Below, one piece after another: positions 44,947-55,709 of a DNA stretch of 64,000 nucleotides. Location of the stretch: assembly GCF_004120195.1 (NCBI RefSeq), contig NZ_SCHN01000005.1, positions 62,001-126,000 of the forward strand, written 5' to 3'. Made by a program: the position numbers and the translations under genes. This stretch comes from Enterovibrio baiacu (GTDB lineage: Bacteria; Pseudomonadota; Gammaproteobacteria; Enterobacterales; Vibrionaceae). The notes beneath the pieces were generated by a model. It had not been told where the DNA came from, made no database searches, and saw only the letters and a list, made by a program, of their open reading frames with translations. Every line of letters starts with the position of its first letter. The stretch's first letter is position 1.

Positions 44947-45468
44947 TCACTGCTTTTCAAAGAAAATGGTAATGCGCCCTACTTCAATGCCAAATTTCTT
45001 CATTGAGGTGAGGTTGAACACGCGCTTGTCGTCTTGTCGGTATAACCAATCATCAAGCGTTAGTACATAGTTGCTTTCGCCAACGTCAACGCTCAAATCA
45101 TACGCCCAATTCAGTGCGTTTCCTTCTTCACGTCCAGTGGCAATACCGACAACATCACCCGCTGTGCCTTGGTATGAACCGTCTTCATTTTGCGTGATCG
45201 TCCAAACGCGCTTTTGCTTTTCACCGTCAGCGAAATCAAAGTCTTCATCTAACGTGAGTTGATTGCCTTCCACCGTGCCTCGAATGATCACTTCAAAGCG
45301 ACGGGTTTCCATGCCTGAGTAGTCTTGAACCATTCCCCAAGCTTTTACTTCGCCGTCAAAATACTCAAACAGATTGAACGCTGGTGACGTGGTTTTGTAG
45401 TCATCGATGGAACTGGAGCATCCCACCAACCCGAAAAAGATGGCGCTTAAAAGTGTTATTATTCTCAT
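44947..45468 (-). CDS. DUF3833-type lipoprotein
   Basis: From ATG 45468 (AGGAAA upstream) the 173-aa product has a lipobox LVGC (Cys 17). A DUF3833-like body follows: 'FNLFEYFDGEVKAWGMVQDY' and 'RRFEVIIRGTVEGNQLTLDEDF' (in part), then 'KRVWTI' and 'FNLTSMKKFGIEVGRITIFF'. The fold is probably a lipocalin-like barrel that could hold a lipid. It is the last gene of the operon that begins at 54540, 2 bp after the chalcone-isomerase-like gene, and genes of this family accompany cfa/DUF1365 clusters in other proteobacteria. Confidence 0.82.
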   Translation of the reverse strand: MRIITLLSAIFFGLVGCSSSIDDYKTTSPAFNLFEYFDGEVKAWGMVQDYSGMETRRFEVIIRGTVEGNQLTLDEDFDFADGEKQKRVWTITQNEDGSYQGTAGDVVGIATGREEGNALNWAYDLSVDVGESNYVLTLDDWLYRQDDKRVFNLTSMKKFGIEVGRITIFFEKQ

Positions 45469-45470
45469 GT

Positions 45471-46133
45471 TTATTTCCTGTTTGACGCGTCGCCGCCAAT
45501 CAGCGCGAGCCTGAGTGTTGGGTAGGCGGTATCCGGGGAAAGCCATATGTTGGCGAATGCCTCGGCGAGGACTGCTTCACGCAATGAGCCTGTCGGTTTC
45601 GCCGCTTCATTCAATGCTTGATAAAAGAACTGGCCCGTTTGATTCGAAAGCACATAAATCAAACGATCCCCTTCTTTCACGTTCGGCCACACGCCCTTCA
45701 TGCTGGGCAGCCAGCTATCAATCTGTTTTTTGCTGTATCCGAGGTGTTCCCACTGCTCGACCGTCGCATCAAGCAAGTCTTCAGCATCAATATCACGGCT
45801 ATAAGTGATCACCAACGCCAGTGGCTCGCTGCTCTCTGATACGTATTTGCCGTTAGGGGTACGCAGTTCGCTGTCGTAGATCTTCCAAAAGCCCCACGTT
45901 AGCGTGGCATTGCCCACAGGCTTCCACCACACCCACGAATCGCTTTTCGAGCTTGTTGTTGAAGATTGTTCCTCAGTCGCTTTTGGCACCGCGTCTGTTG
46001 GCTTCACGTCTGCAAAAGACGCCGATGAGGCTGTTAGCGCCGCCATGAACAAGCACAGCGCAGAGAAAGCCTTTGGGCGTGACCAAGGCTTACTCAACCT
46101 TTGTTTGTTCATCATCGCAGTGGTTAACGTCAT
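45471..46133 (-). CDS. chalcone-isomerase-like exported protein
   Basis: The protein (about 220 aa from ATG 46133, alternatives at 46163 GTG and 46115 ATG) has a signal peptide ending at 'SASFA'. A domain resembling bacterial chalcone-isomerase-fold proteins follows: 'WGFWKIYDSELRTPNGKY', 'EPLALVITYSRDIDAEDLLDAT', 'MKGVWPNVKEGDRLIYVL'. Bacterial members are thought to bind fatty acids rather than flavonoids. Its place among lipid-modifying genes supports a role in handling modified acyl chains in the periplasm. Confidence 0.78.
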   Translation of the reverse strand: MTLTTAMMNKQRLSKPWSRPKAFSALCLFMAALTASSASFADVKPTDAVPKATEEQSSTTSSKSDSWVWWKPVGNATLTWGFWKIYDSELRTPNGKYVSESSEPLALVITYSRDIDAEDLLDATVEQWEHLGYSKKQIDSWLPSMKGVWPNVKEGDRLIYVLSNQTGQFFYQALNEAAKPTGSLREAVLAEAFANIWLSPDTAYPTLRLALIGGDASNRK

Positions 46134-46162
46134 CAGTGTGCAATCCTTATTCTTCGCAGGCA

Positions 46163-46684
46163 CTATTTCTTCAGCGACATCGCTGCATCGTTATCAATAG
46201 CCGGCTTAGTTTTTCTCGTTAGCACCCTGAGCATAGAGAGGAATAACAGCGTGTACATCAGCCACATCCCAAACAGAATCAGCGCCGTCTTCTCGATAGG
46301 ATCCCCGAACGTGACTGCACCTAAGCGCTCGCCGCCGAGGTAACTGAGCATTCCCCCTACGCTGCCTGCAACGAGTAATATCCACGTCTTTTGCGACAAC
46401 AACCAATCGCGAAGTAACCAGAGGTAGGAAGCAAAACCAGCCCACATTAGGCAAAGCCAAAGCGGCAAATGCGGATGCGGGAATTGCAGAATGCCCAAAT
46501 GCGAAAGCACGCTATCTCCGACAATCCCAATTACCGCAAACAGTGGCATTGCCCAGTATAAGGCGCGATCCAACAGCAGCGCCCCGATAAGCAACAGCAC
46601 CAACACTGGGATCCAATCACTACGTCCAACGACAGCGGCAAACCAAAACACATTGAACGCTAACGAAAGTAAAATGACGCGCAT
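46163..46684 (-). CDS. DUF2878-type membrane protein
   Basis: The 173-aa inner-membrane protein has about six transmembrane segments filling nearly the whole length and a His/Pro loop ('LQFPHPHLPLWLCLMWAG'). ATG 46684 follows AAGGGG; a frame seven codons longer is less likely. DUF2878 proteins are uncharacterised but recur beside cfa, DUF1365 and DUF3833 genes, as here. Its stop overlaps the longest possible start of the next gene. Confidence 0.8.
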   Translation of the reverse strand: MRVILLSLAFNVFWFAAVVGRSDWIPVLVLLLIGALLLDRALYWAMPLFAVIGIVGDSVLSHLGILQFPHPHLPLWLCLMWAGFASYLWLLRDWLLSQKTWILLVAGSVGGMLSYLGGERLGAVTFGDPIEKTALILFGMWLMYTLLFLSMLRVLTRKTKPAIDNDAAMSLKK

Positions 46685-46724
46685 ACGTTCCCCTTTCTCG
46701 GCCATGCCGTTGTTTCAGAACGCA

Positions 46725-46753: not shown

Positions 46754-47992
46754 TTACTCTCTCCAGCCCGGACGGCTCATGACCAGTTGCACCGTACTGA
46801 TCGTGCGCTCGCGGAAGCCACCTTCGCAGTAGCAGAAGTAGTAGCGCCACAAGCGAATAAAGCGCTCGTCATAGCCCAGAGCCATCAATTCTGATTGGCT
46901 TTCGTTAAAGCGTTGATGCCAGTCTTCAAGGGTTTTTGCGTAATCTAACCCGATGTCTTTCAAGTCGCGCACCACCAAGTCACTGTGGCGTGTGAAGTGA
47001 GAGAGCAGCACGTTGACGGACGGCAGGAAGCCCCCTGGGAAGATGTGTTTCTGAATGAAGTCCACGTTATTGCTGTAGTAGTCATAACGTTGGTCGGCGA
47101 TGGTGATGGCTTGGATTGCCATCAAGCCGTCATGCTTGAGCAGCGATTGGCATTTCTGGATATAGGTTGTCAGGTACTGTTTACCGACCGCCTCGATCAT
47201 TTCGATGGATACCAACTTGTCGTATTCACCCGTAAGATCACGGTAATCTTCTTTGAGCAAGGTGATCTTGTCTTCCAAGCCTTCTTGTTCAACGCGGCTT
47301 TTCGCCCATTCAAACTGCTCATTGGAAATCGTTGTGGTGGTCACACGGCATCCGTAGTGTTTCGCCGCATGAATCGCCATCGCGCCCCAACCTGTACCAA
47401 TTTCGATCAAGTGGTCAGTGGGTTTCAATTCAAGCTGGCGGCACAAACGATCCATCTTTTGAAATTGCGCTTGCTCTAACGAATCGGATTCCGCTTCGTA
47501 AATACCACTCGAATACAACATTTCTTGGTCTAGGAATTGCTCATAAAGCGCATTGCCCAGGTCATAATGTGCGGAAATGTTGTTTCGTGAATTCTCTTTG
47601 GTATTGCGGTTCTTCCAATGCGCAATCTTGGTCACGATGTCAGCGAGCCACCCGACCTTGCTTTCCAAGCGATCAAGCGCAGGCATGTTTCGACAACACA
47701 CACGAATCACATTGGTAAGATCTGGGGAATCCCACCAGCCATCGACATAGGCTTCTGCTGCACCAATGCTGCCGCCGGTGAGAAGTCTTTGATAAAAGCC
47801 TGGGTGCTTAATGATGATTTCTGCATGCAACTCGGCAGAGGGATCACCCAATTGGTGTGTTTGTCCATCATGATCAACAAGCGTGAGACCCGCGTCTTCG
47901 ATGTATCCGAACGTTTTCAACAGCACATTTCTTGCGAAAGTGTCTTTCTTGGTCACCGCGCAGGATGTGGTTTCGATTTGGCTTGAATACAT
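46754..47992 (-). CDS. cyclopropane-fatty-acyl-phospholipid synthase family methyltransferase
   Basis: The 412-aa SAM enzyme has an N-terminal sterol-carrier-like part, the nucleotide-binding motif 'LIEIGTGWGAMAIHAAKHYG', then 'TTTISNEQFEWAKSRV', 'YDKLVSIEMIEAVG', 'IFPGGFLP' and a C-terminal 'FRLWRYYFCYCEGGF'-like end (written here as 'RYYFCYCEGGFRERTI'). It adds a methylene or methyl group across acyl chains in membrane phospholipids. In photo-oxidative-stress clusters related enzymes also make branched precursors of furan fatty acids, so the exact product is open. It is 2 bp from the DUF1365 gene. Confidence 0.9.
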   Translation of the reverse strand: MYSSQIETTSCAVTKKDTFARNVLLKTFGYIEDAGLTLVDHDGQTHQLGDPSAELHAEIIIKHPGFYQRLLTGGSIGAAEAYVDGWWDSPDLTNVIRVCCRNMPALDRLESKVGWLADIVTKIAHWKNRNTKENSRNNISAHYDLGNALYEQFLDQEMLYSSGIYEAESDSLEQAQFQKMDRLCRQLELKPTDHLIEIGTGWGAMAIHAAKHYGCRVTTTTISNEQFEWAKSRVEQEGLEDKITLLKEDYRDLTGEYDKLVSIEMIEAVGKQYLTTYIQKCQSLLKHDGLMAIQAITIADQRYDYYSNNVDFIQKHIFPGGFLPSVNVLLSHFTRHSDLVVRDLKDIGLDYAKTLEDWHQRFNESQSELMALGYDERFIRLWRYYFCYCEGGFRERTISTVQLVMSRPGWRE

Positions 47993-47994
47993 AG

Positions 47995-48732
47995 TTACTC
48001 CTTAACCTGAGCCGGATGAGAATAAAACGGTGCGCCTTTAATCCAGAGCTTCAATGCTTGCCAATAAATGGAAGCCACCACTTTTACTGTCATCACCGGT
48101 GTCTTAACGATGAGTTTGCTGAGTTCTTTTGATGTGAAAGGCTTCTTTGTTAGCGCAAGCGTTGCATCAAATTCCTTCTCGCCGCGGTGTGTTTCTAAGT
48201 GCACAAACGCGGTTTTGTCCAAAGGACGAAGCTTCCACACGTATTTTTGATCGACGGGATTAAACGGGGAGACATGAAACGCTTTATTGTTCTCCCAACG
48301 TTTGCCCGCAGGAATCGCGTAATAATGACGCTGATTCCAAGGTGTATTGCTGACCTCGGCAAGAATGTATTGCCATTGGTCATTTTCGTCATACAGGTAG
48401 TAAAAATTCACAGGGCTAAAATAGAGCCCGAAATACCGCAGGTGACAGAGCGCGAAAACTTTTCCCTCGACGCGCTTGCCGGTTAACGCATGAACCTTGT
48501 CTTGTACCGCTTGTTTGGTGTCTACGCGCCCTTCCATGTAGTCAGGACGGTGAAACGTTGCCACGCCCCACTTTCTTAACGAAAAGCCACGCACGTTTTG
48601 TACCAATGCATCTAGCTCATCAAGATCAATCATGGGCATGAACATGGGATAGGTGAATCCGTGCTCAACCGGCGTAAAACGACGGTGACGAACGCTGCCT
48701 ACAAACAGACCGCTGTTGGCGTCTGTGTTCAT
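47995..48732 (-). CDS. DUF1365 protein
   Basis: The 245-aa protein shows the DUF1365 pattern 'LFVGSVRHRRFTPVEHGFTYPMFM' (in part), 'FHRPDYM', 'CHLRYFGLYFSPVNFYYLYD' and 'EVSNTPWNQRHYYAIP'. It almost always accompanies the FAD oxidoreductase and cfa-like genes, as here, and is presumed to act on the same lipids; mechanism unknown. It overlaps the FAD oxidoreductase stop by 4 bp. Confidence 0.88.
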   Translation of the reverse strand: MNTDANSGLFVGSVRHRRFTPVEHGFTYPMFMPMIDLDELDALVQNVRGFSLRKWGVATFHRPDYMEGRVDTKQAVQDKVHALTGKRVEGKVFALCHLRYFGLYFSPVNFYYLYDENDQWQYILAEVSNTPWNQRHYYAIPAGKRWENNKAFHVSPFNPVDQKYVWKLRPLDKTAFVHLETHRGEKEFDATLALTKKPFTSKELSKLIVKTPVMTVKVVASIYWQALKLWIKGAPFYSHPAQVKE

Positions 48733-50015
48733 GACGCGCTCCTTAGTGGAACGGGTAGATCGTTAATCGCGCTAACAACGTCTAGTCCGCTTCTTACGCC
48801 GTCTTCATGGAATCCGTTGTACCAATACGCACCGCAGAACCATGTGCGATCAATTCCGTTTACCAAATGACGTTCTTTTTGTGCATCGATGCACTTTTGG
48901 TCGAAAACCGGGTGCGCATACACAAACTCACGGAGCACTTTTTCTGGCGCAATATGGTCTGTTTGATTGAGGGTGACACAGAAGGTCTCTGGCGCATCAA
49001 TCCCTTGCAAGATGTTCATGTCATAGGTCAGGGCCGCAGGTCGATCTTCCCGTCCATCACTGGCACCTAGGTGGTAATTCCAGCTTGCCCATGCGGCTTT
49101 GCGACGTGGCAATAAGGATTCATCAGTGTGCAGCACCACGTCGTTATCTTGGTAATCGATCGCGCCGAGAATGGCTGACTCATCTTTGCTCGGGTCAATG
49201 AGCATTTTTAGCGCTTGATCGCTGTGACACGCAAAAATCACATGATCAAATCTCTCAATGCCTGTATATGTTTCAATGACTACATCGTGTGATGTGCGTT
49301 CAACGCGAAGTACTGGCGTGCTCAAGCGGATTGAGGATTCAAACGCCGGCACCATTTTTCTTACGTATTCACGAGAACCACCTGGGATCACATACCACTG
49401 TGGGCGATTGGTGACATCCAGCAAGCCGTGGTTTTGGAAGAAACGCAGGAAGAACTTGAGAGGAAACGCGCGCATATCTGACAAGGTGGAAGACCAAATC
49501 GCCGCGCCCATCGGAAGAATGTAGTTCTGGCAGAAGTAGTCGCTGAATTTGCGGCTTTCGAGAAAATCGCCCAGCGTTTGCTCAATCAATGGATCGCCGT
49601 GGGTTGCGATGGAATGCGCTTCTCTGGCTTCTTTATTAAAACGCAAGATTTCTCGGATAAACAAGTAGAACTTTGGATTGAACAGATTACGCTTTTGCGC
49701 AAACAAAGAGGCCACGCTGTGGCCATTGTATTCAAGGCCGTTGTCTTCGTTGCGAACACTGAAGCTCATTTCAGAATCTTGACCCGTGATACCAATGTCG
49801 GCCATGAGTTTCTGGAAGTTTGGGTACGTGCGATCGTTGAAAACAATAAAGCCTGTATCAATGGCGTATTTGCCGCTTTCAACTTCAACGTCGACGGTCG
49901 CTGTGTGCCCGCCTATATAATCGTTGGCTTCGAACAGCGTGATGTCGTGGTTTTTGTGTAGGTAATGCGCACAGGTAAGACCTGAAATACCTGAGCCGAT
50001 GATTGCAATTTTCAT
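48729..50015 (-). CDS. FAD-dependent amine-oxidase-like oxidoreductase
   Basis: The 428-aa flavoprotein has an N-terminal dinucleotide motif ('IAIIGSGISGLTCAHYL'), 'LFEANDYIGGHTATVDV' and 'GFIVFNDRTYPNF', with a C-terminal FAD region around 'NGIDRTWFCGAYWYNGFHEDG'. It belongs to the NAD(P)-binding/amine-oxidase-like group found next to DUF1365 and cfa-like genes. It may desaturate or oxidise acyl chains. Both ends overlap neighbours by 4 bp. Confidence 0.88.
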   Translation of the reverse strand: MKIAIIGSGISGLTCAHYLHKNHDITLFEANDYIGGHTATVDVEVESGKYAIDTGFIVFNDRTYPNFQKLMADIGITGQDSEMSFSVRNEDNGLEYNGHSVASLFAQKRNLFNPKFYLFIREILRFNKEAREAHSIATHGDPLIEQTLGDFLESRKFSDYFCQNYILPMGAAIWSSTLSDMRAFPLKFFLRFFQNHGLLDVTNRPQWYVIPGGSREYVRKMVPAFESSIRLSTPVLRVERTSHDVVIETYTGIERFDHVIFACHSDQALKMLIDPSKDESAILGAIDYQDNDVVLHTDESLLPRRKAAWASWNYHLGASDGREDRPAALTYDMNILQGIDAPETFCVTLNQTDHIAPEKVLREFVYAHPVFDQKCIDAQKERHLVNGIDRTWFCGAYWYNGFHEDGVRSGLDVVSAINDLPVPLRSAS

Positions 50016-50743
50016 TGTGCATTCCTTGTTATTTTTTTAACGAGCGCAAACTGACATGCCATTGGCAAAGTGGCTAAGAACTTGAGTATGTAACTGAATT
50101 TTTTCGGGAAATGCACCTCGGCTTTTCTTTTTTCTAAGCCTTGGCGTATTGCGAGCGATGCTTCCTCAGATGAGACCATCATAGGCATAGCGAAATCGTT
50201 TTTGTCCGTGAGCGGTGTTTTTACAAACCCCGGCGAGACAAGTGACACCGTCACTCCTTTTGGTTCTAAATCCACGGAAAGTGAGCGAGAAAGATAAGAT
50301 ACCGCCGCTTTTGACGCGCCGTAGGCTTCGGCTCGCGGCAAACCGAGGTAAGCGGCTGTAGAGCCCATTAGCGCAAGGTGTGTGCCGTCAGTAAAGCGTG
50401 CTTGTAGCGCTTCAATGCAATTCAAGATGCCAAACACATTGATGTCGAAAACACGTCGGAACAAGGTTACGTCAATACGACCTTCTTCGATGTATTCGCA
50501 CGTGCCTGCATTTAGGATGATTAAGTCGAAGCGCTCAGTTTGAGATGACAGAGCACGTTTGGTGTCATCCAAATCGGTGGCGTCAAAGCGCAATGAAGTG
50601 ACATTGTCACGCTCTAAGGCAAGTGCATCAATGTGCTGTGTGTTGCGGCCGCAGCCCACGACATGCCAGCCATTTTCAGCATAGTCTTTCGCGAGCTGTA
50701 GGCCTATGCCCGATGAAGCGCCGGTGATTAATACGCGTTTCAT
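50012..50743 (-). CDS. short-chain dehydrogenase/reductase
   Basis: The 243-aa SDR has the NAD(P) motif 'VLITGASSGIGLQLA', 'ILNAGTCEY', catalytic Ser ('LALMGSTAAYLG') and the Tyr-x3-Lys pair ('EAYGASKAAVSYLSRSLS'). After it comes 'PGFVKTPLTDKNDF'. It is a soluble oxidoreductase, substrate unknown, and belongs to the conserved photo-stress gene set. It overlaps both neighbours by 4 bp. Confidence 0.9.
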   Translation of the reverse strand: MKRVLITGASSGIGLQLAKDYAENGWHVVGCGRNTQHIDALALERDNVTSLRFDATDLDDTKRALSSQTERFDLIILNAGTCEYIEEGRIDVTLFRRVFDINVFGILNCIEALQARFTDGTHLALMGSTAAYLGLPRAEAYGASKAAVSYLSRSLSVDLEPKGVTVSLVSPGFVKTPLTDKNDFAMPMMVSSEEASLAIRQGLEKRKAEVHFPKKFSYILKFLATLPMACQFALVKKITRNAQ

Positions 50744-51207
50744 TGGCCTAACCTCTTTTTGATCATTTTGACCGCAGACCCCAACACTGGCAGCGCTTCA
50801 TACAGCATTTCACCTAAGTCAAAAAAGTCGCGGTGCATCACCACGCGCCCTTCTTTCAATCCCAACTTGGTACACCCTTTAACGGCACGCTCTGCACCGC
50901 CTTCAAGCTTGGGATGCGACAACGTCATGGTCCAACTGATAAAGGCAATGTCGCCATTTACAGCGTGATCATGAATTTCGAAACGGCAGTCCGTCACGTT
51001 GGTGTACATGGTGTCGAAATAGCGCGCGAGGTTGTCGTACCCCTCTATGCGGTGTGCAGGGTCTTCGAAGACAACATCGTGACTGTAAATCGCGTCCAGC
51101 GTATCGAGGTTGTCTTTACGCAAGGCCTGATAAACATGAATAAACCGTTCAAGCGTTGCCGCTTCTGAGGAATAAATGTGGTCTGACGTTGCAGTGCTTT
51201 GCATCAT
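50740..51207 (-). CDS. NTF2/SnoaL-like small protein
   Basis: The 155-aa protein has the cone-shaped NTF2-like fold signature: 'RFIHVYQALRKDNLDTLDAIYSHDVVFEDP' (in parts), 'IEGYDNLARYFDTMYTNV', 'HDHAVNGDIAFISWTMTLSHP' (in part) and 'HRDFFDLGEMLYEALP'. Such folds act as isomerases, hydrolases or binding proteins. It is coupled by 4-bp overlaps to the photolyase upstream and the SDR downstream. Confidence 0.85.
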   Translation of the reverse strand: MMQSTATSDHIYSSEAATLERFIHVYQALRKDNLDTLDAIYSHDVVFEDPAHRIEGYDNLARYFDTMYTNVTDCRFEIHDHAVNGDIAFISWTMTLSHPKLEGGAERAVKGCTKLGLKEGRVVMHRDFFDLGEMLYEALPVLGSAVKMIKKRLGQ

Positions 51208-52655
51208 GATTCAACCCTTTGTTTGGACGGTCCCGACTTCGCCGTTTCGAACATTTCAATCGCTTTTTGACGTGCAAGTTTATGGTCAACAATGGGTTTC
51301 ACGTATGACAGCTCAATGCCATTTTTTTCCGCCCATTTATGCGGTTCATGTATCGACTTGTCTGGAACAGTTTCTAATTCTTTCAACCATCTACGGATGA
51401 ATCTCGCATTGGGATCAAACTTCTTGCCCTGCGTGGTTGGGTTAAACACTCTGAAATAAGGTTGGGCATCCGTGCCTACAGACGCAGACCACTGCCATCC
51501 ACCATTATTGGCAGCGAAATCGCCATCAATAAGCTTCCAGTTAAAGTAACGCTCACCCCATCGCCAATCGATGTGTAAGTCCTTAACAAGGAAACTGGCA
51601 ACAATCATTCGCAGGCGATTGTGCATCCACCCCGTTTCATTCAACTGGCGCATGGCGGCATCAACGATGGGATACCCGGTTTTCCCCTGCTTCCAACGCT
51701 CAAACAACAGCTCGTCTCGGTTCCACGCGATGTTGTCTGTCCATTCGAGGAAGGCTTTTCCGCGGCTGATCGCAGGATAGGTAGCCGCAATGTGTTGGTA
51801 GAATTCTCGCCAAACGATTTCAGACAACCAAACGTTCGCCCCGCCGGTGCCTTTCTCTAAGCAATCTTTCGACTCCAGCATTAATCGTGCAATACATTGT
51901 CGCGGTGAAATAGCCCCTATCGCGAGGTAAGGTGATAACTGGCTGGTGGCCGGAATGGCGGGAAAATCGCGCAAATTTTCATATTGTTCGACGCGATAGC
52001 GACAGAAATCACGCATGCGTTGAATGATGGCGCTGTCATCTACAGGCCAGCTGACCGAATCATCTTGGTGATAGTGCAGTTCTATCTCACCTTGCCCTCT
52101 CAGCATGCTTGAAGTGATAGAACACGCTGGCACAGGCTCGGGCGACGCCAGAGGTGCAACACCATGTAAGGCGAGTTTTGCTATCCATGTTTTCTTAAAA
52201 GGCGTGAAAACGCGATACATGGTTCCTGAGCCATTCGTCACCGTGCCAGGCGCGAAAACGCACTTATAGTCATACGCATGGAAGCTTGTCCCTGTGAGAC
52301 TCAATAAACCCGCAATGGCGTTATCACGGTTAATCTCATCAATTTCATGGTCCCGCGTGCAATAGACATCCGAGATTTGATATTGCTGACAGAGCTGCGC
52401 AATCAGGGGATTGATGTCGCTGTAGTAATTCGCACAATGCACCATCAACGGAATGTTCAGCGCTTCGAGCTCAGTACGTAATACGTGCAGACGACGACGA
52501 ATCAAATCAGCCTGAATGGGAGCGTTGCAGTACCTTTTCCACTGTAAAGGCGTTTCATAGTACACTGCGATAACCGACTCGCCAGACTTACACGCTTCCG
52601 TCAGTGCAAGGTTGTCCTTTACGCGCAGATCTCGCCTAAACCAAACCAATTTCAT
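51204..52655 (-). CDS. phrB: deoxyribodipyrimidine photolyase
   Basis: The 483-aa class I photolyase has an N-terminal antenna-binding domain ('LVWFRRDLRVKDNLAL') and a C-terminal FAD domain. The latter shows 'LSPYLAIGAISPRQC', 'WLSEIVWREFYQHI', 'GKTGYPIVDAAMRQL', 'GWMHNRLRMIVASFLVKDL' and 'NNGGWQWSASVGTDAQPYFR'. The Trp residues for electron transfer and the Asn/Gly FAD site are present. It repairs UV pyrimidine dimers with blue light. It is third in the operon, coupled by 4-bp overlaps to the MerR gene and the NTF2-like gene. Confidence 0.95.
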   Translation of the reverse strand: MKLVWFRRDLRVKDNLALTEACKSGESVIAVYYETPLQWKRYCNAPIQADLIRRRLHVLRTELEALNIPLMVHCANYYSDINPLIAQLCQQYQISDVYCTRDHEIDEINRDNAIAGLLSLTGTSFHAYDYKCVFAPGTVTNGSGTMYRVFTPFKKTWIAKLALHGVAPLASPEPVPACSITSSMLRGQGEIELHYHQDDSVSWPVDDSAIIQRMRDFCRYRVEQYENLRDFPAIPATSQLSPYLAIGAISPRQCIARLMLESKDCLEKGTGGANVWLSEIVWREFYQHIAATYPAISRGKAFLEWTDNIAWNRDELLFERWKQGKTGYPIVDAAMRQLNETGWMHNRLRMIVASFLVKDLHIDWRWGERYFNWKLIDGDFAANNGGWQWSASVGTDAQPYFRVFNPTTQGKKFDPNARFIRRWLKELETVPDKSIHEPHKWAEKNGIELSYVKPIVDHKLARQKAIEMFETAKSGPSKQRVES

Positions 52656-53572
52656 TGAAATTGCTCCCTTTCACTTTTTTCACTTACCGATGAACTCGAC
52701 GCCTTCTCGGCATGTTGAGTTTTTGAGGTGGTGAACAAATCTGAATGAATAACGCGGCACTTCCCCAGCAAAGACACAGACACAAGTTCTTCGTCGGCGA
52801 TGGTGACGACATCGCGTTTCATGGATGCTGACAGTGCAACCTCAGAAAAAATAACTAACTCCTTGGTATCGCTGTTTTTAATCGTTTTCACCAAAGAAAT
52901 AAGATTAGAATCAAGCCCTTCTATAGTTGTGACGGCGTAACCTTTTGATTGATAGTTGAGCGCTTGTCCATAGAAAAGGTGCAAATCATTCATAGACGTC
53001 GACACCAACACACAGTGTTTTTTGCTCGGTGCTTTCTGGCCCAATTGAAAACAGCGCAACAACTCATGGCGCAACGCCGTTAACCAAGTATTTAAACAAA
53101 GGCCTATCACGTCAGATTTCTGCTCAGAGAAGAATGCTGTCAGCGGAATAAACAGGTTTCGTTCTAACACTGTAATGGGATAGTGCTTGGTGAGTTCAGA
53201 CAGCAGACGCTTCAATCGCGGCACGTCAAAATCCATCACTGCTTTTTTGAGCTCATCGGCTTCCCTCGCCATTTCAGTATCAGACGAGGTGTTGGGTGTG
53301 AATGTCTCATCGTTAAGTAGCGCTTTTACTTGTCCCACAGGTACACCACGATCGAGCCATTTAAGAATGTTATTGATGAGCGCCACATCCTTGCTTGTGT
53401 ACATGCGATGACCTTTGGGCGTTCGCTGCGGCTTTAACAAGCCGTAGCGACGTTGCCAAGCTCTCAGCGTGACGGTGTTAACCCCCGTCACCTCTGAGAC
53501 TTCTCCAATAGAGAGCAACGGCTTTTCATCCGAAAGGTTGTTCTCTATGACGTGGTCGTTTATCGCTTTCAT
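52652..53572 (-). CDS. MerR-family regulator, class II LitR-like
   Basis: The protein (306 aa from ATG 53572, with AGGAAG 6 bp upstream) has an N-terminal MerR helix-turn-helix ('LSIGEVSEVTGVNTVTLRAW', then 'RRYGLLKPQRTPKGHRMY'). The longer C-terminal part resembles the B12-binding region of LitR/CarH, but its key motifs are altered: 'NDLHLFYG' stands where DxHxxG would be, and the Trp/Glu-His adenosyl pocket is not evident. This matches class II LitR proteins, which do not sense light through B12 themselves. With photolyase next door and two TGTACA-N12-TGTACA sites upstream, it is the likely operon regulator. Confidence 0.82.
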   Translation of the reverse strand: MKAINDHVIENNLSDEKPLLSIGEVSEVTGVNTVTLRAWQRRYGLLKPQRTPKGHRMYTSKDVALINNILKWLDRGVPVGQVKALLNDETFTPNTSSDTEMAREADELKKAVMDFDVPRLKRLLSELTKHYPITVLERNLFIPLTAFFSEQKSDVIGLCLNTWLTALRHELLRCFQLGQKAPSKKHCVLVSTSMNDLHLFYGQALNYQSKGYAVTTIEGLDSNLISLVKTIKNSDTKELVIFSEVALSASMKRDVVTIADEELVSVSLLGKCRVIHSDLFTTSKTQHAEKASSSSVSEKSEREQFQ

Positions 53573-53583
53573 ACCCAGCTTCC

Positions 53584-54540
53584 TCACAGCCCGTAACGGA
53601 GTCTTAGGCTGTCTGGATAAGGATGGAGGTAGCTTTGTCGCGACAAGTATTCATCCGGATGCTGTTGCAAGTGGTGATTGATCAGCGTCAATGGCGCGAG
53701 TAATGGCATTTCACCCTTACGGTATGCATGGATGAGGTTTGAAAGCTCTGCTTTTGAAGATTTATCTAAATCACGTTTGAAGTACCCCTGCAGGTGCATA
53801 AGCACATTGGTGTTGTTCTTTTTGCTCGCACAGTGAGCAATGGCTTTCATGAAACGATTGCGGTATTCGATGTAGAATTCATCGATGTCATGATCGGCAA
53901 TGTTGGCAACGAACTTACCGAGGGATTTGTATTCTGTTGGGCAATGCGCCATCAGCACCAATTTATAGCGGGAGTGAAACTCAACCACGGCACGGCGCGT
54001 AATGCCCTCGGCCATTGAGTCATGTAGATCTTTTAACGCAAACACACGAAACACAAAATTCTCGCGTAATACTGGATCGTTCAAACGGCCGTCTTCTTCA
54101 ACGGGCAACCAAGGCATGCGTTCCATCAGTTGTTTGGTATACAGACCAACACCGCTTTTCTCAGACGCGGCATAACCGCTTTCTTTGTACACCTTTACAC
54201 GTTCCATGCCACACGTTGGCGACTTCGCGCATACGACATAGCCACACAGATCCATGCTCGCTAATTGTTCCGTCTTCTTACGGCTGAAGGCTTCCATCTT
54301 TTCAGTGTGGTCAGCAGCGCTGTCTTTGGTTTCTACCAAACGGATGCCAATTTCGTCTCTGTCCAACAAACGAATGGTTGGGCGAGGAACTGACATGCCA
54401 ATAGCGACTTCAGGGCAGACAGGCACAAACTCTACATACGGCAACAATTCTTTCGCCACAAAGTGGCTGCGCTTATGACCGCTATCAAATCGGACCTTCT
54501 CTCCGATGACACAGGCGCTTACACCTAATTTAATGCTCAT
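53584..54540 (-). CDS. DUF523 and DUF1722 protein (YbgA-like)
   Basis: From ATG 54540 (GGGAGA upstream) the 318-aa protein has an N-terminal DUF523 domain ('KLGVSACVIGEKVRFDSGHKR', in part, 'CPEVAIGMSVPRPTIRL', 'CGYVVCAKSPTCGMERVKVY') with several Cys residues. A C-terminal DUF1722 (YbgA) domain follows ('LVEFHSRYKLVLMAHCP'-like, here 'VVEFHSRYKLVLMAH'). The pairing is typical beside phr genes. Activity is unknown, although E. coli ybgA sits next to phr. It is the first gene of the operon. Confidence 0.9.
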   Translation of the reverse strand: MSIKLGVSACVIGEKVRFDSGHKRSHFVAKELLPYVEFVPVCPEVAIGMSVPRPTIRLLDRDEIGIRLVETKDSAADHTEKMEAFSRKKTEQLASMDLCGYVVCAKSPTCGMERVKVYKESGYAASEKSGVGLYTKQLMERMPWLPVEEDGRLNDPVLRENFVFRVFALKDLHDSMAEGITRRAVVEFHSRYKLVLMAHCPTEYKSLGKFVANIADHDIDEFYIEYRNRFMKAIAHCASKKNNTNVLMHLQGYFKRDLDKSSKAELSNLIHAYRKGEMPLLAPLTLINHHLQQHPDEYLSRQSYLHPYPDSLRLRYGL

Positions 54541-54555
54541 CACACATCTCCCTGT

Positions 54556-54629
54556 TGTACATGCTTTTCTATTTGTACAACTTAGATAAGAAAAAAGATC
54601 ACTCTTGTACAAAATTTTTTATGTGTACA
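54556..54629 (-). promoter_or_regulatory. operon promoter with two TGTACA-N12-TGTACA operators
   Basis: Four TGTACA hexamers occur at 54556-54561, 54574-54579, 54606-54611 and 54624-54629, forming two pairs, each with exactly 12 bp between. A minus-strand promoter fits between them: -35 TTGTAC (54612-54607) overlapping the upstream pair and -10 TTATCT (54589-54584), 17-bp spacer. The downstream pair then covers the start point. This matches the T(G/A)TACA-N12-TGTA(C/T)A operator I recall for Pseudomonas putida PplR1, a class II LitR. Confidence 0.85.
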
Positions 54630-54645
54630 GTTTAGTAATAGCAAA

Positions 54646-54673
54646 ACGCCCCGACATTTACATGGCGGGGCGT
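54646..54673 (-). terminator. terminator of the SbmA-like transporter gene
   Basis: ACGCCCCG (54646-54653) and CGGGGCGT (54666-54673) pair; on the minus strand TTTTG follows. It insulates the photolyase operon promoter from the upstream gene. Confidence 0.75.
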
Positions 54674-54704
54674 AACAGTTTTCTTACTAATTTTTAATGT
54701 GTTA

Positions 54705-55709
54705 TTAGTCAGTAGCGGCTGATTTTTCCGCTTTTATCGCGAGATCAATTTCTTGTTCAAAGGCCTTCAGACGCTTGTGAATCGACATCAACTCAACAAT
54801 GGTCTTCCAAGAATTCACCAAAAACTGGAACGATTCTTCCACCTTGCCAAAGGCACGAACGATTTGTTGGAGCACGCCCAGCGTGATCACACCAGAAATA
54901 ATGGTAGGACCCAGTGCGATGTAAGGCACAATCACAGTGCCCTGCAGATAGGACCATTTTGCGATATCGAAATATAAATAGTGCTTATACAGGTTGAAGT
55001 AGTTTTTACGGACATTGGCAAACAGCTCACTCAGCGTTTCTGGCTCCGCGCGATTTTCATAATCTTCACCGTAAACCAGCTCTTTACGGTATGCCGCTTC
55101 AACTTTCTGATTCTTAAACTCAAGCCCTGGCAGTTTAATCCCCACCACAGCCAGCAACACGGTACCGAACAACGCCGAAATGATGGCGATGTAGACAAGA
55201 GAGTGCTCTACAGGCCCAATCCAAGGCAATTCAGTCACATTCTTACTGAGTTCCCAAAGTATTGGTAAGAAGGCCACCAGCGTCATCAATGAGCGCATAA
55301 ATGCCACACCCAAGGTCTCAACAATGCCAGCAAAACGCATAGTGTCTTCTTGCACACGTTGGGATGCACCTTCTATATGGCTGATCTTGCTCCAATGCGA
55401 GGTATAGTAATCATTCATCGCGGTACGCCAGCGGAACACATAGTGACGAATGAAAAAGTCGAGTACGACCGCAACGGTGATGTAAATTGTCGCGATTTTC
55501 AGGAAGGTTAAACACGACGAGAGGTATTCTTCAAACGTGACTGAGTTGGGCGTAGCAAGCGCCTGTTGAATCAAGTTATAGAAAGAACCAAACCATTCAT
55601 TGATTTCTACATCCAGTTCCACTTTGTACCAAGTCACATACAAGATAAGCGCACTACCGAGGATGGACCAAAGAAACCATCGCTTATCCAGAAAGAAAGA
55701 CTTAAACAT
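54705..55709 (-). CDS. SbmA/BacA-like peptide transporter
   Basis: The 334-aa inner-membrane protein has about six hydrophobic segments and SbmA/BacA landmarks: 'MFKSFF' start, 'FFIRHYVFRWRTAMNDYYTSHW' (in part), 'IEGASQRVQEDTMRFAGIVE' and a C-terminal 'FQFLVNSWKTIVELMSIHKRLKAFE'. ATG 55709 has AAGGA 8 bp upstream. The family resembles ABC exporters without an ATPase and takes up proline-rich peptides and B12-like compounds with protons. At 334 aa it is shorter than E. coli SbmA (406 aa). Monocistronic. Confidence 0.85.
   Translation of the reverse strand: MFKSFFLDKRWFLWSILGSALILYVTWYKVELDVEINEWFGSFYNLIQQALATPNSVTFEEYLSSCLTFLKIATIYITVAVVLDFFIRHYVFRWRTAMNDYYTSHWSKISHIEGASQRVQEDTMRFAGIVETLGVAFMRSLMTLVAFLPILWELSKNVTELPWIGPVEHSLVYIAIISALFGTVLLAVVGIKLPGLEFKNQKVEAAYRKELVYGEDYENRAEPETLSELFANVRKNYFNLYKHYLYFDIAKWSYLQGTVIVPYIALGPTIISGVITLGVLQQIVRAFGKVEESFQFLVNSWKTIVELMSIHKRLKAFEQEIDLAIKAEKSAATD

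Follow-up and report, generated by a model that had tools for sequence, protein, structure and literature searches.

Paired LitR-type operators and a predicted sigmaE/ChrR promoter upstream of the photolyase operon of Enterovibrio baiacu

Four copies of the hexamer TGTACA lie upstream of a photolyase operon in the 64-kb stretch of the genome of the marine bacterium Enterovibrio baiacu that was analysed here (the window). Their arrangement raises the question of which regulator binds them, which sigma factor reads the promoter and how light might act on it. In the sequence-only reading of this DNA they were taken to be operators for a class II LitR, placed over a sigma70 promoter, and a short LOV protein with its gene elsewhere in the genome was expected to supply the light signal; as a whole, that combination now appears unlikely.

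Paired operators upstream of rudS

The hexamers start at positions 54556, 54574, 54606 and 54624 and form two pairs, op1 and op2, each with 12 bp between its hexamers (Table 1), precisely as that reading had described. Both pairs agree exactly with the LitR-type operator pattern T[G/A]TACA-N12-TGTA[C/T]A in half-sites and spacing. They were the only two exact pairs in the window, and the genome-wide search that had been proposed as a check on the motif (5,371,326 bases, 52 contigs) returned exact TGTACA-N12-TGTACA matches at op1 and op2 only, together with one-mismatch matches at three further places. From the density of the hexamer, approximately 0.34 exact pairs would be expected per genome; for two exact pairs within 100 bp in the window the corresponding figure was approximately 2.5e-8, calculated post hoc for one preset spacing. 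The single hexamer was not enriched in the window (16 observed, shuffle mean 13.66), nor was the pair pattern with up to two mismatches (4 observed, mean 2.18, with at least 4 in 17 of 100 shuffles). A reversed control pattern gave one match in the genome compared to two for the real pattern when no mismatches were allowed, and ten forward matches compared to five when up to one was allowed. The bare pair count thus matters little; it is the clustering and conservation of the sites that carry weight.

The genes of the operon are given in Table 1. Identification of the second product as a LitR-like MerR protein, which the sequence-only reading had already made, was borne out by a MerR_1 match and a CarH-like predicted fold. 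Judged from strand and spacing alone, the DUF2878, chalcone-isomerase-like and DUF3833 genes probably form the tail of the operon. The hairpin upstream of op1 is a possible terminator insulating the operon; it was not reported by the terminator scan. The accessible text of PMC11417400 describes RudS desulfidases as often encoded in light-responsive operons, one of them with LitR and PhrB.

Table 1. Features of the operon and its promoter region (positions in the window)
Feature	Position	Strand	Basis
op1 (upstream operator), TGTACA-N12-TGTACA	54606..54629	.	exact pattern match
op2 (downstream operator), TGTACA-N12-TGTACA	54556..54579	.	exact match; between promoter and RudS start codon
Predicted -35 of sigmaE/ChrR (ECF) promoter, TGATCT	54596..54601	-	TGATC identical in 13/13 genus promoters; TGATCC in 11/13
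Predicted -10 of sigmaE/ChrR promoter, TGTACA (op2 first half-site)	54574..54579	-	distance from TGATC as for the lon-rpoE-chrR CGTA
Sigma70 -35 of the sequence-only reading, TTGTAC	54607..54612	-	present; 3/6 to TTGACA
Sigma70 -10 of the sequence-only reading, TTATCT	54584..54589	-	present; 2/6 to TATAAT; not kept in genus
Possible terminator: GC-rich hairpin then TTTT, past upstream sbmA-like gene	54643..54672	-	read in sequence
RudS-like protein (2-thiouracil desulfurase/TudS + DUF1722), first operon gene	53584..54540	-	Pfam PF04463, PF08349; ATG at 54540
LitR/CarH-like MerR regulator, second operon gene	52652..53587	-	Pfam MerR_1
DNA photolyase PhrB	51204..52655	-	Pfam; NCBIfam NF007955 above cut-off
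SnoaL-like protein	50740..51207	-	Pfam
Short-chain dehydrogenase (SDR)	50012..50743	-	Pfam
FAD-dependent oxidoreductase	48729..50015	-	Pfam
DUF1365 protein	47995..48732	-	Pfam
Cfa/UfaM-like fatty-acid methyltransferase	46754..47992	-	CMAS domain; below NCBIfam cut-off for named Cfa types
DUF2878, chalcone-isomerase-like (26.9 bits, cut-off 27) and DUF3833 genes	44947..46705	-	domain matches

Conservation was assessed in 18 Enterovibrio and Grimontia genomes, the source genome included. A LitR-like MerR orthologue was found in 13 of these (source genome counted), and each of the 13 has the double site at the same place in front of rudS; both pairs are exact in eight operons and have one or two mismatches in total in the other five. 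Across the 13, op1 has zero to two mismatches, the first half-site of op2 (op2a) is identical throughout and the second has a mean pairwise identity of 95%. The op1-op2 distance is 51 instead of 50 in two genomes. The exact-pair search alone also gave 13 of 18 genomes; these include G005, which lacks LitR and whose exact pair was taken as chance, and leave out the LitR-bearing G007, which has inexact pairs only. In G010 a third exact pair is present at C25:34825-34848, on a contig other than that of its LitR operon.

At a wider scale, 80 LitR loci were collected, of which the 39 without a rudS motif match upstream were, except for L159, left out of promoter-layout scoring. The 42 loci scored for arrays comprised 7 from the genus and 35 from outside it. 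Under a loose rule a four-hexamer array was found at 40 of the 42, one of which (L150) was scored at the wrong place, its real array being visible in the upstream sequence; L175 and L191 have no tetrad. Arrays with up to four mismatches were present at 39 of the 42 loci compared to none of 210 shuffled upstream regions. Both pairs have N12 spacing in Enterovibrio, Grimontia, Salinivibrio and Thaumasiovibrio; Photobacterium loci are mostly N11/N12, and the ten Vibrio loci scored are without exception N11/N11. The expectation that orthologous promoters keep precisely 12 bp thus stood for the genus and failed for the family; because Photobacterium and Vibrio loci use N11, N12 is a rule of the former and not of the latter. 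In the Salinicola group (L164, L169, L172, L174, L182, L198, L199 and L215), TGTACA-N12-[TC]GTACA occurs 288-337 bp upstream of the LitR match; these loci have no rudS in front by motif, and their operator layout differs.

A footprinted counterpart of the double site is promoter P6650 of Pseudomonas mendocina, as described in the available part of PMC9758184. It carries TGTACA-N12-TGTACA twice: Site 1 covers the -35, and Site 2 falls after the start point but ahead of the ATG. The PmlR2 footprint is broad and spans both, and changing both Site 2 hexamers abolishes binding. Expression of pmlR1, phrB and ufaM is light-induced about 6 to 33 fold (PMC9758184). The E. baiacu locus resembles this system in gene order as far as the genes are named there (regulator, phrB, SDR, FAD oxidoreductase, UfaM), in its two N12 sites, placed at the -35 region and ahead of the ATG, respectively, and in having a regulator gene inside the operon. 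The E. coli regulators MlrA and BluR are of broadly the same MerR kind and bind GTACA, the MlrA site being TGTACA-N12-TGCACA; they differ in their targets and, for BluR, in having a BLUF-EAL antagonist (BluF), according to the accessible sections of PMC3509220.

The assignment of the motif to the LitR family, also made by the sequence-only reading, is in agreement with the footprinted P6650 sites and with linkage to the operon in 13 of 13 genomes. By analogy, LitR-family operators on an autoregulated operon are well supported. LitR, encoded by the second gene of rudS-litR-phrB-...-cfa, would bind op1 and op2 and repress both itself and the photoprotection genes; since it is encoded inside the operon that it would repress, self-repression is expected. 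Both binding and dark repression are taken from P. mendocina.

Sigma factor use at the promoter

In the sequence-only reading, a sigma70 promoter was fitted to the operators. Both boxes are present, 17 bp apart, and that part of the proposal stood. However, their match to the consensus, counted by eye, is weak (Table 1), a sigma70 promoter scan of 54400-54800 gave no promoter at its threshold, so that the site did not class as sigma70, and the -10 position varies within the genus (e.g. CCTTCT, GCCGCT), several members having TATGCT one base off the proposed place (spacing 16).

A promoter of the sigmaE/ChrR type (ECF11-type) appears to fit better than sigma70. The pattern TGATC[CT]-N16-TGTACA was found in all 13 LitR promoters of the genus, preceded by G in 12, and its TGTACA is op2a; neither TGATC nor op2a varies among the 13, compared to a mean pairwise identity of 64% for the 16-nt spacer. 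Genes for a Lon-domain protein, an ECF sigma factor (Sigma70_r2/r4) and a ChrR-cupin protein lie in a row in the source genome (Pfam; TIGR02451 E 6.9e-55 for ChrR), which thus encodes both an ECF sigma factor and ChrR. Among the 18 genus genomes, ChrR exceeded the cut-off in exactly the 13 that have LitR. In each of these 13 the lon-rpoE-chrR promoter reads GTGATC-N17-CGTA, in the same register as TGATC[CT]-N16-TGTACA; searching for it with TGATC[CT] and CGTA gave 2 of 13 and with GTGATC 13 of 13, the next base being mostly G. Against TGATCC-N16-CGTA, the ChIP-seq consensus of the ChrR-linked ECF sigma factor of P. syringae (accessible text of PMC5507510), the E. baiacu site reads TGATCT, N16, TGTA and agrees at 8 of 10 bases with exact spacing, and its putative -10 TGTA agrees with CGTA at 3 of 4 bases. 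For V. cholerae sigmaE the consensus is given as TGATC-N16-18-CGTAW (in the available part of PMC5241685).

TGATC lies between the pairs in 18 of 40 arrays, 7 of them in the genus (all N16) and 11 outside (9 N16, 2 N17). The op1-op2 gap in TGATC-bearing arrays ranges from 23 to 27 (23 to 26 outside the genus), and in the two genus genomes with an extra base the insertion falls between op1 and TGATC, leaving TGATC-N16-op2 unchanged. Because the TGATC-op2 spacing holds while the op1-op2 gap varies, the position of TGATC is tied to op2 rather than to op1, as expected of a -35 and its -10. Half-site op2a therefore probably has a second role, that of the -10 in a sigmaE/ChrR promoter. Within a single genus the conservation of TGATC partly reflects descent, and a single occurrence of TGATC-N17-[CT]GTA proves nothing, since four lie in the window (shuffle mean 0.87). 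A strict genome search with TGATCS-N16-CGTAWW gave three matches, compared to one for the reversed control: the lon-rpoE-chrR promoter, a site upstream of a lipocalin-like gene and a site inside a TonB-receptor-like gene (the last two genes named by eye). These are too few to define a regulon. The lipocalin-like match lies directly upstream of its gene, at C8:49137-49164 on the minus strand (L223:1501-1528). A perfect TGATCC-N16-CGTA inside phrB (51392-51417, minus strand), which recurs in relatives, was rejected as an internal sigmaE promoter; it spells photolyase residues (FDP...FIRR in the window), and coding constraint explains its recurrence.

The operators are not tied to this promoter type across the family. 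None of the ten Vibrio loci scored has TGATC between the pairs; V. jasicida, V. rotiferianus and Vibrio ES.051 have TTGTAC-N17-TATAAG, and the other Vibrio loci match TATAAT at 3 to 5 of 6 positions. In Pseudomonas 8O, TTGACT-N16-TATGAT was found by eye, the same hexamers as in P6650, and the operators are kept without TGATC. These sigma70-like boxes, like the match of operator and operon to P6650, speak for the sequence-only reading; against it stand the poor boxes of E. baiacu and the LOV searches described below. At ten loci in Vibrio and one in Pseudomonas the operators are thus retained and TGATC is absent, which suggests a switch of sigma factor under a fixed operator. A sigma70-like -10 (TACxxT at 17 bp) accompanies TGATC in several promoters of Photobacterium and Salinivibrio, and a dual promoter at which both sigma factors are used is possible there and here.

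The promoter P6650 differs from the E. baiacu promoter in having sigma70 hexamers where an ECF-type -35 is found here (PMC9758184). The V. cholerae MerR-phr operon (VCA0055-VCA0058) is presumed to be orthologous; according to the available part of PMC5241685, it is up-regulated in a chrR mutant, and MerR is needed for the ChrR-independent response to blue light. Since the ten Vibrio loci lack TGATC and this operon rises in the chrR mutant, not every member of the family places the operon under sigmaE control. The rise fits the promoter of a relative, V. mimicus, which differs from that of E. baiacu in its N11/N11 pairs, TATAGA at 17 bp and absence of TGATC. In S. oneidensis, the corresponding operon SO_3386 (ybgA-phrB-cfa) has a predicted RpoE2 promoter, TGATCC-N16-CGTAAT, with one TGTACA in the spacer (accessible text of PMC4336711); there, however, the -10 is CGTA, separate from TGTACA, and the one Shewanella locus read (L175) has no four-hexamer array.

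Both the operator and the operon have been described before in Pseudomonas, and for Shewanella and P. syringae there are predictions or reports that sigmaE controls the operon. No paper was found that places LitR operators together with a sigmaE/ChrR promoter in one piece of DNA; the search covered open-licence literature, outside which most subscription journals lie. Overall, the sequence evidence points with moderate confidence to LitR repression on top of a singlet-oxygen sigmaE/ChrR promoter. The ECF sigma factor of the sigmaE-ChrR system would read the -35 TGATCT and, 16 bp on, op2a as the -10. LitR on op2 would cover the -10 and the start point, with op1 immediately ahead of the -35. For transcription, sigmaE would have to be released from ChrR and LitR removed from op2, so that the operon may depend on two light-linked signals together.

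The LitR regulator and its light input

The closest named LitR is that of Enterovibrio norvegicus DSM 15893 (79%). In the tree, the LitR of the window groups with those of Enterovibrio, Grimontia and Veronia, apart from Pseudomonas, although the deepest forks are weak, and a Pfam scan up to E 10 detected neither PF02607 (the B12-binding_2 four-helix domain) nor any B12 domain. These results do not agree with the class II assignment that had been proposed. Vibrio LitRs are named class IV, and their function is described as unknown, in the available part of PMC9758184. The E. baiacu protein, a Vibrionaceae LitR without an intact B12 motif, may belong to that class (Vibrio-type, without a B12-binding domain). 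Of the B12-binding motifs Wx9EH and D/ExHx2G (given in the accessible text of PMC9304148), the first keeps W168 with EH replaced by R-C and the second reads D-L-H-L-F-Y, without the G. With both motifs broken and no Pfam B12 domain, the protein was rejected as a class I, CarH-type adenosyl-B12 photoreceptor. Its predicted fold nevertheless resembles that of the whole T. thermophilus CarH: the model (mean pLDDT 78.7, 11 sequences) comprises an HTH, a helical bundle and a Rossmann-like domain, and the 12 best solved Foldseek matches were all full-length CarH chains (5c8f/5c8e/5c8d; best E 9.2e-12; TM by query 0.36-0.44).

The LOV partner predicted by the sequence-only reading was not found. The LOV signature gave no match in the source genome with up to one mismatch, and no LOV cysteine motif was seen in the 30 PAS_9 loci inspected out of 35 matches, the other five being covered by the DNA signature search only; these searches are motif-based, and an aberrant LOV protein would escape them. 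Among 159 Vibrionaceae genomes the exact signature was present in two, and 99 of the 101 LitR-bearing genomes lack it. In this the locus differs from P. mendocina, in which a short LOV protein (PmSB-LOV) is the partner and PmlR2 belongs to class II (PMC9758184); the E. baiacu regulator falls in another group.

A stand-alone BLUF protein might instead pass light to LitR, as BluF does on BluR in E. coli, a precedent that involves GTACA half-sites (PMC3509220). The source genome (G000) encodes two such proteins of approximately 140 aa, at C35:278143 and C49:150107, and BLUF occurs in exactly the 13 of 18 genus genomes that have LitR. This co-occurrence is not specific, because ChrR has the identical distribution. 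At the family level, LitR was found in 101 and BLUF in 47 of the 159 genomes (both in 27, LitR only in 74, BLUF only in 20, neither in 38), with no significant association (Fisher p = 0.37); one genus group includes 45 LitR genomes and no BLUF. The flanks of 26 BLUF loci contained no operator pair at zero or one mismatch and one match at two mismatches. BLUF as an obligate partner was rejected, the genus pattern of 13/13 against 0/5 having vanished at the family level, and BLUF signalling to LitR in E. baiacu is considered unlikely. A second BLUF type was read by eye in 12 of the 13 genus LitR genomes (G008 left out).

LitR may also itself respond to light, through another chromophore, or to ROS, through a degenerate CarH-type C-terminal domain. 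Neither BLUF nor the LOV signature was found in 72 of the 101 family LitR genomes, and the predicted fold is CarH-like. Furthermore, V. cholerae no longer responds to blue light once both chrR and merR are mutated, and an action of ROS on MerR has been proposed (accessible part of PMC5241685). That ROS sensing is, however, a mere proposal there, and the broken Wx9EH and D/ExHx2G motifs make B12 an unlikely ligand. Direct sensing by LitR is put forward tentatively, as somewhat less than probable. Class IV LitRs are not known to carry a chromophore. Light sensing by LitR here probably uses neither a short LOV protein nor adenosyl-B12; with no LOV, no BLUF association and broken B12 motifs, the candidate inputs are a chromophore of another kind, ROS, or a partner that varies from genus to genus.

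LitR repression of a sigmaE/ChrR promoter can be combined with these results into a fuller scheme, for which the evidence falls short of an even chance. One hexamer would be both a repressor half-site and a sigma -10, for which repressor and sigma factor compete, giving an AND gate; the operators would have remained in place throughout Vibrionaceae as the promoter beneath them passed between sigma70 and sigmaE; and LitR, free of B12 and LOV, would respond to a light or ROS input of a kind not described before. For the Vibrionaceae LitRs these results predict an operator and an autoregulated target operon, together with a promoter logic that can be tested, and the light input of LOV-free, B12-free LitRs becomes directly testable. 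If the scheme is true, the two reported light-stress inputs of V. cholerae, ChrR/sigmaE and MerR, would meet at one promoter, and the locus would show how a promoter can change its sigma factor beneath an unchanged repressor.

The five genus genomes without LitR (G001, G005, G011, G016 and G017) are also without BLUF and without ChrR over the cut-off. Two of the five are only 2.1 and 2.6 Mb in size and could be luminous anglerfish symbionts.
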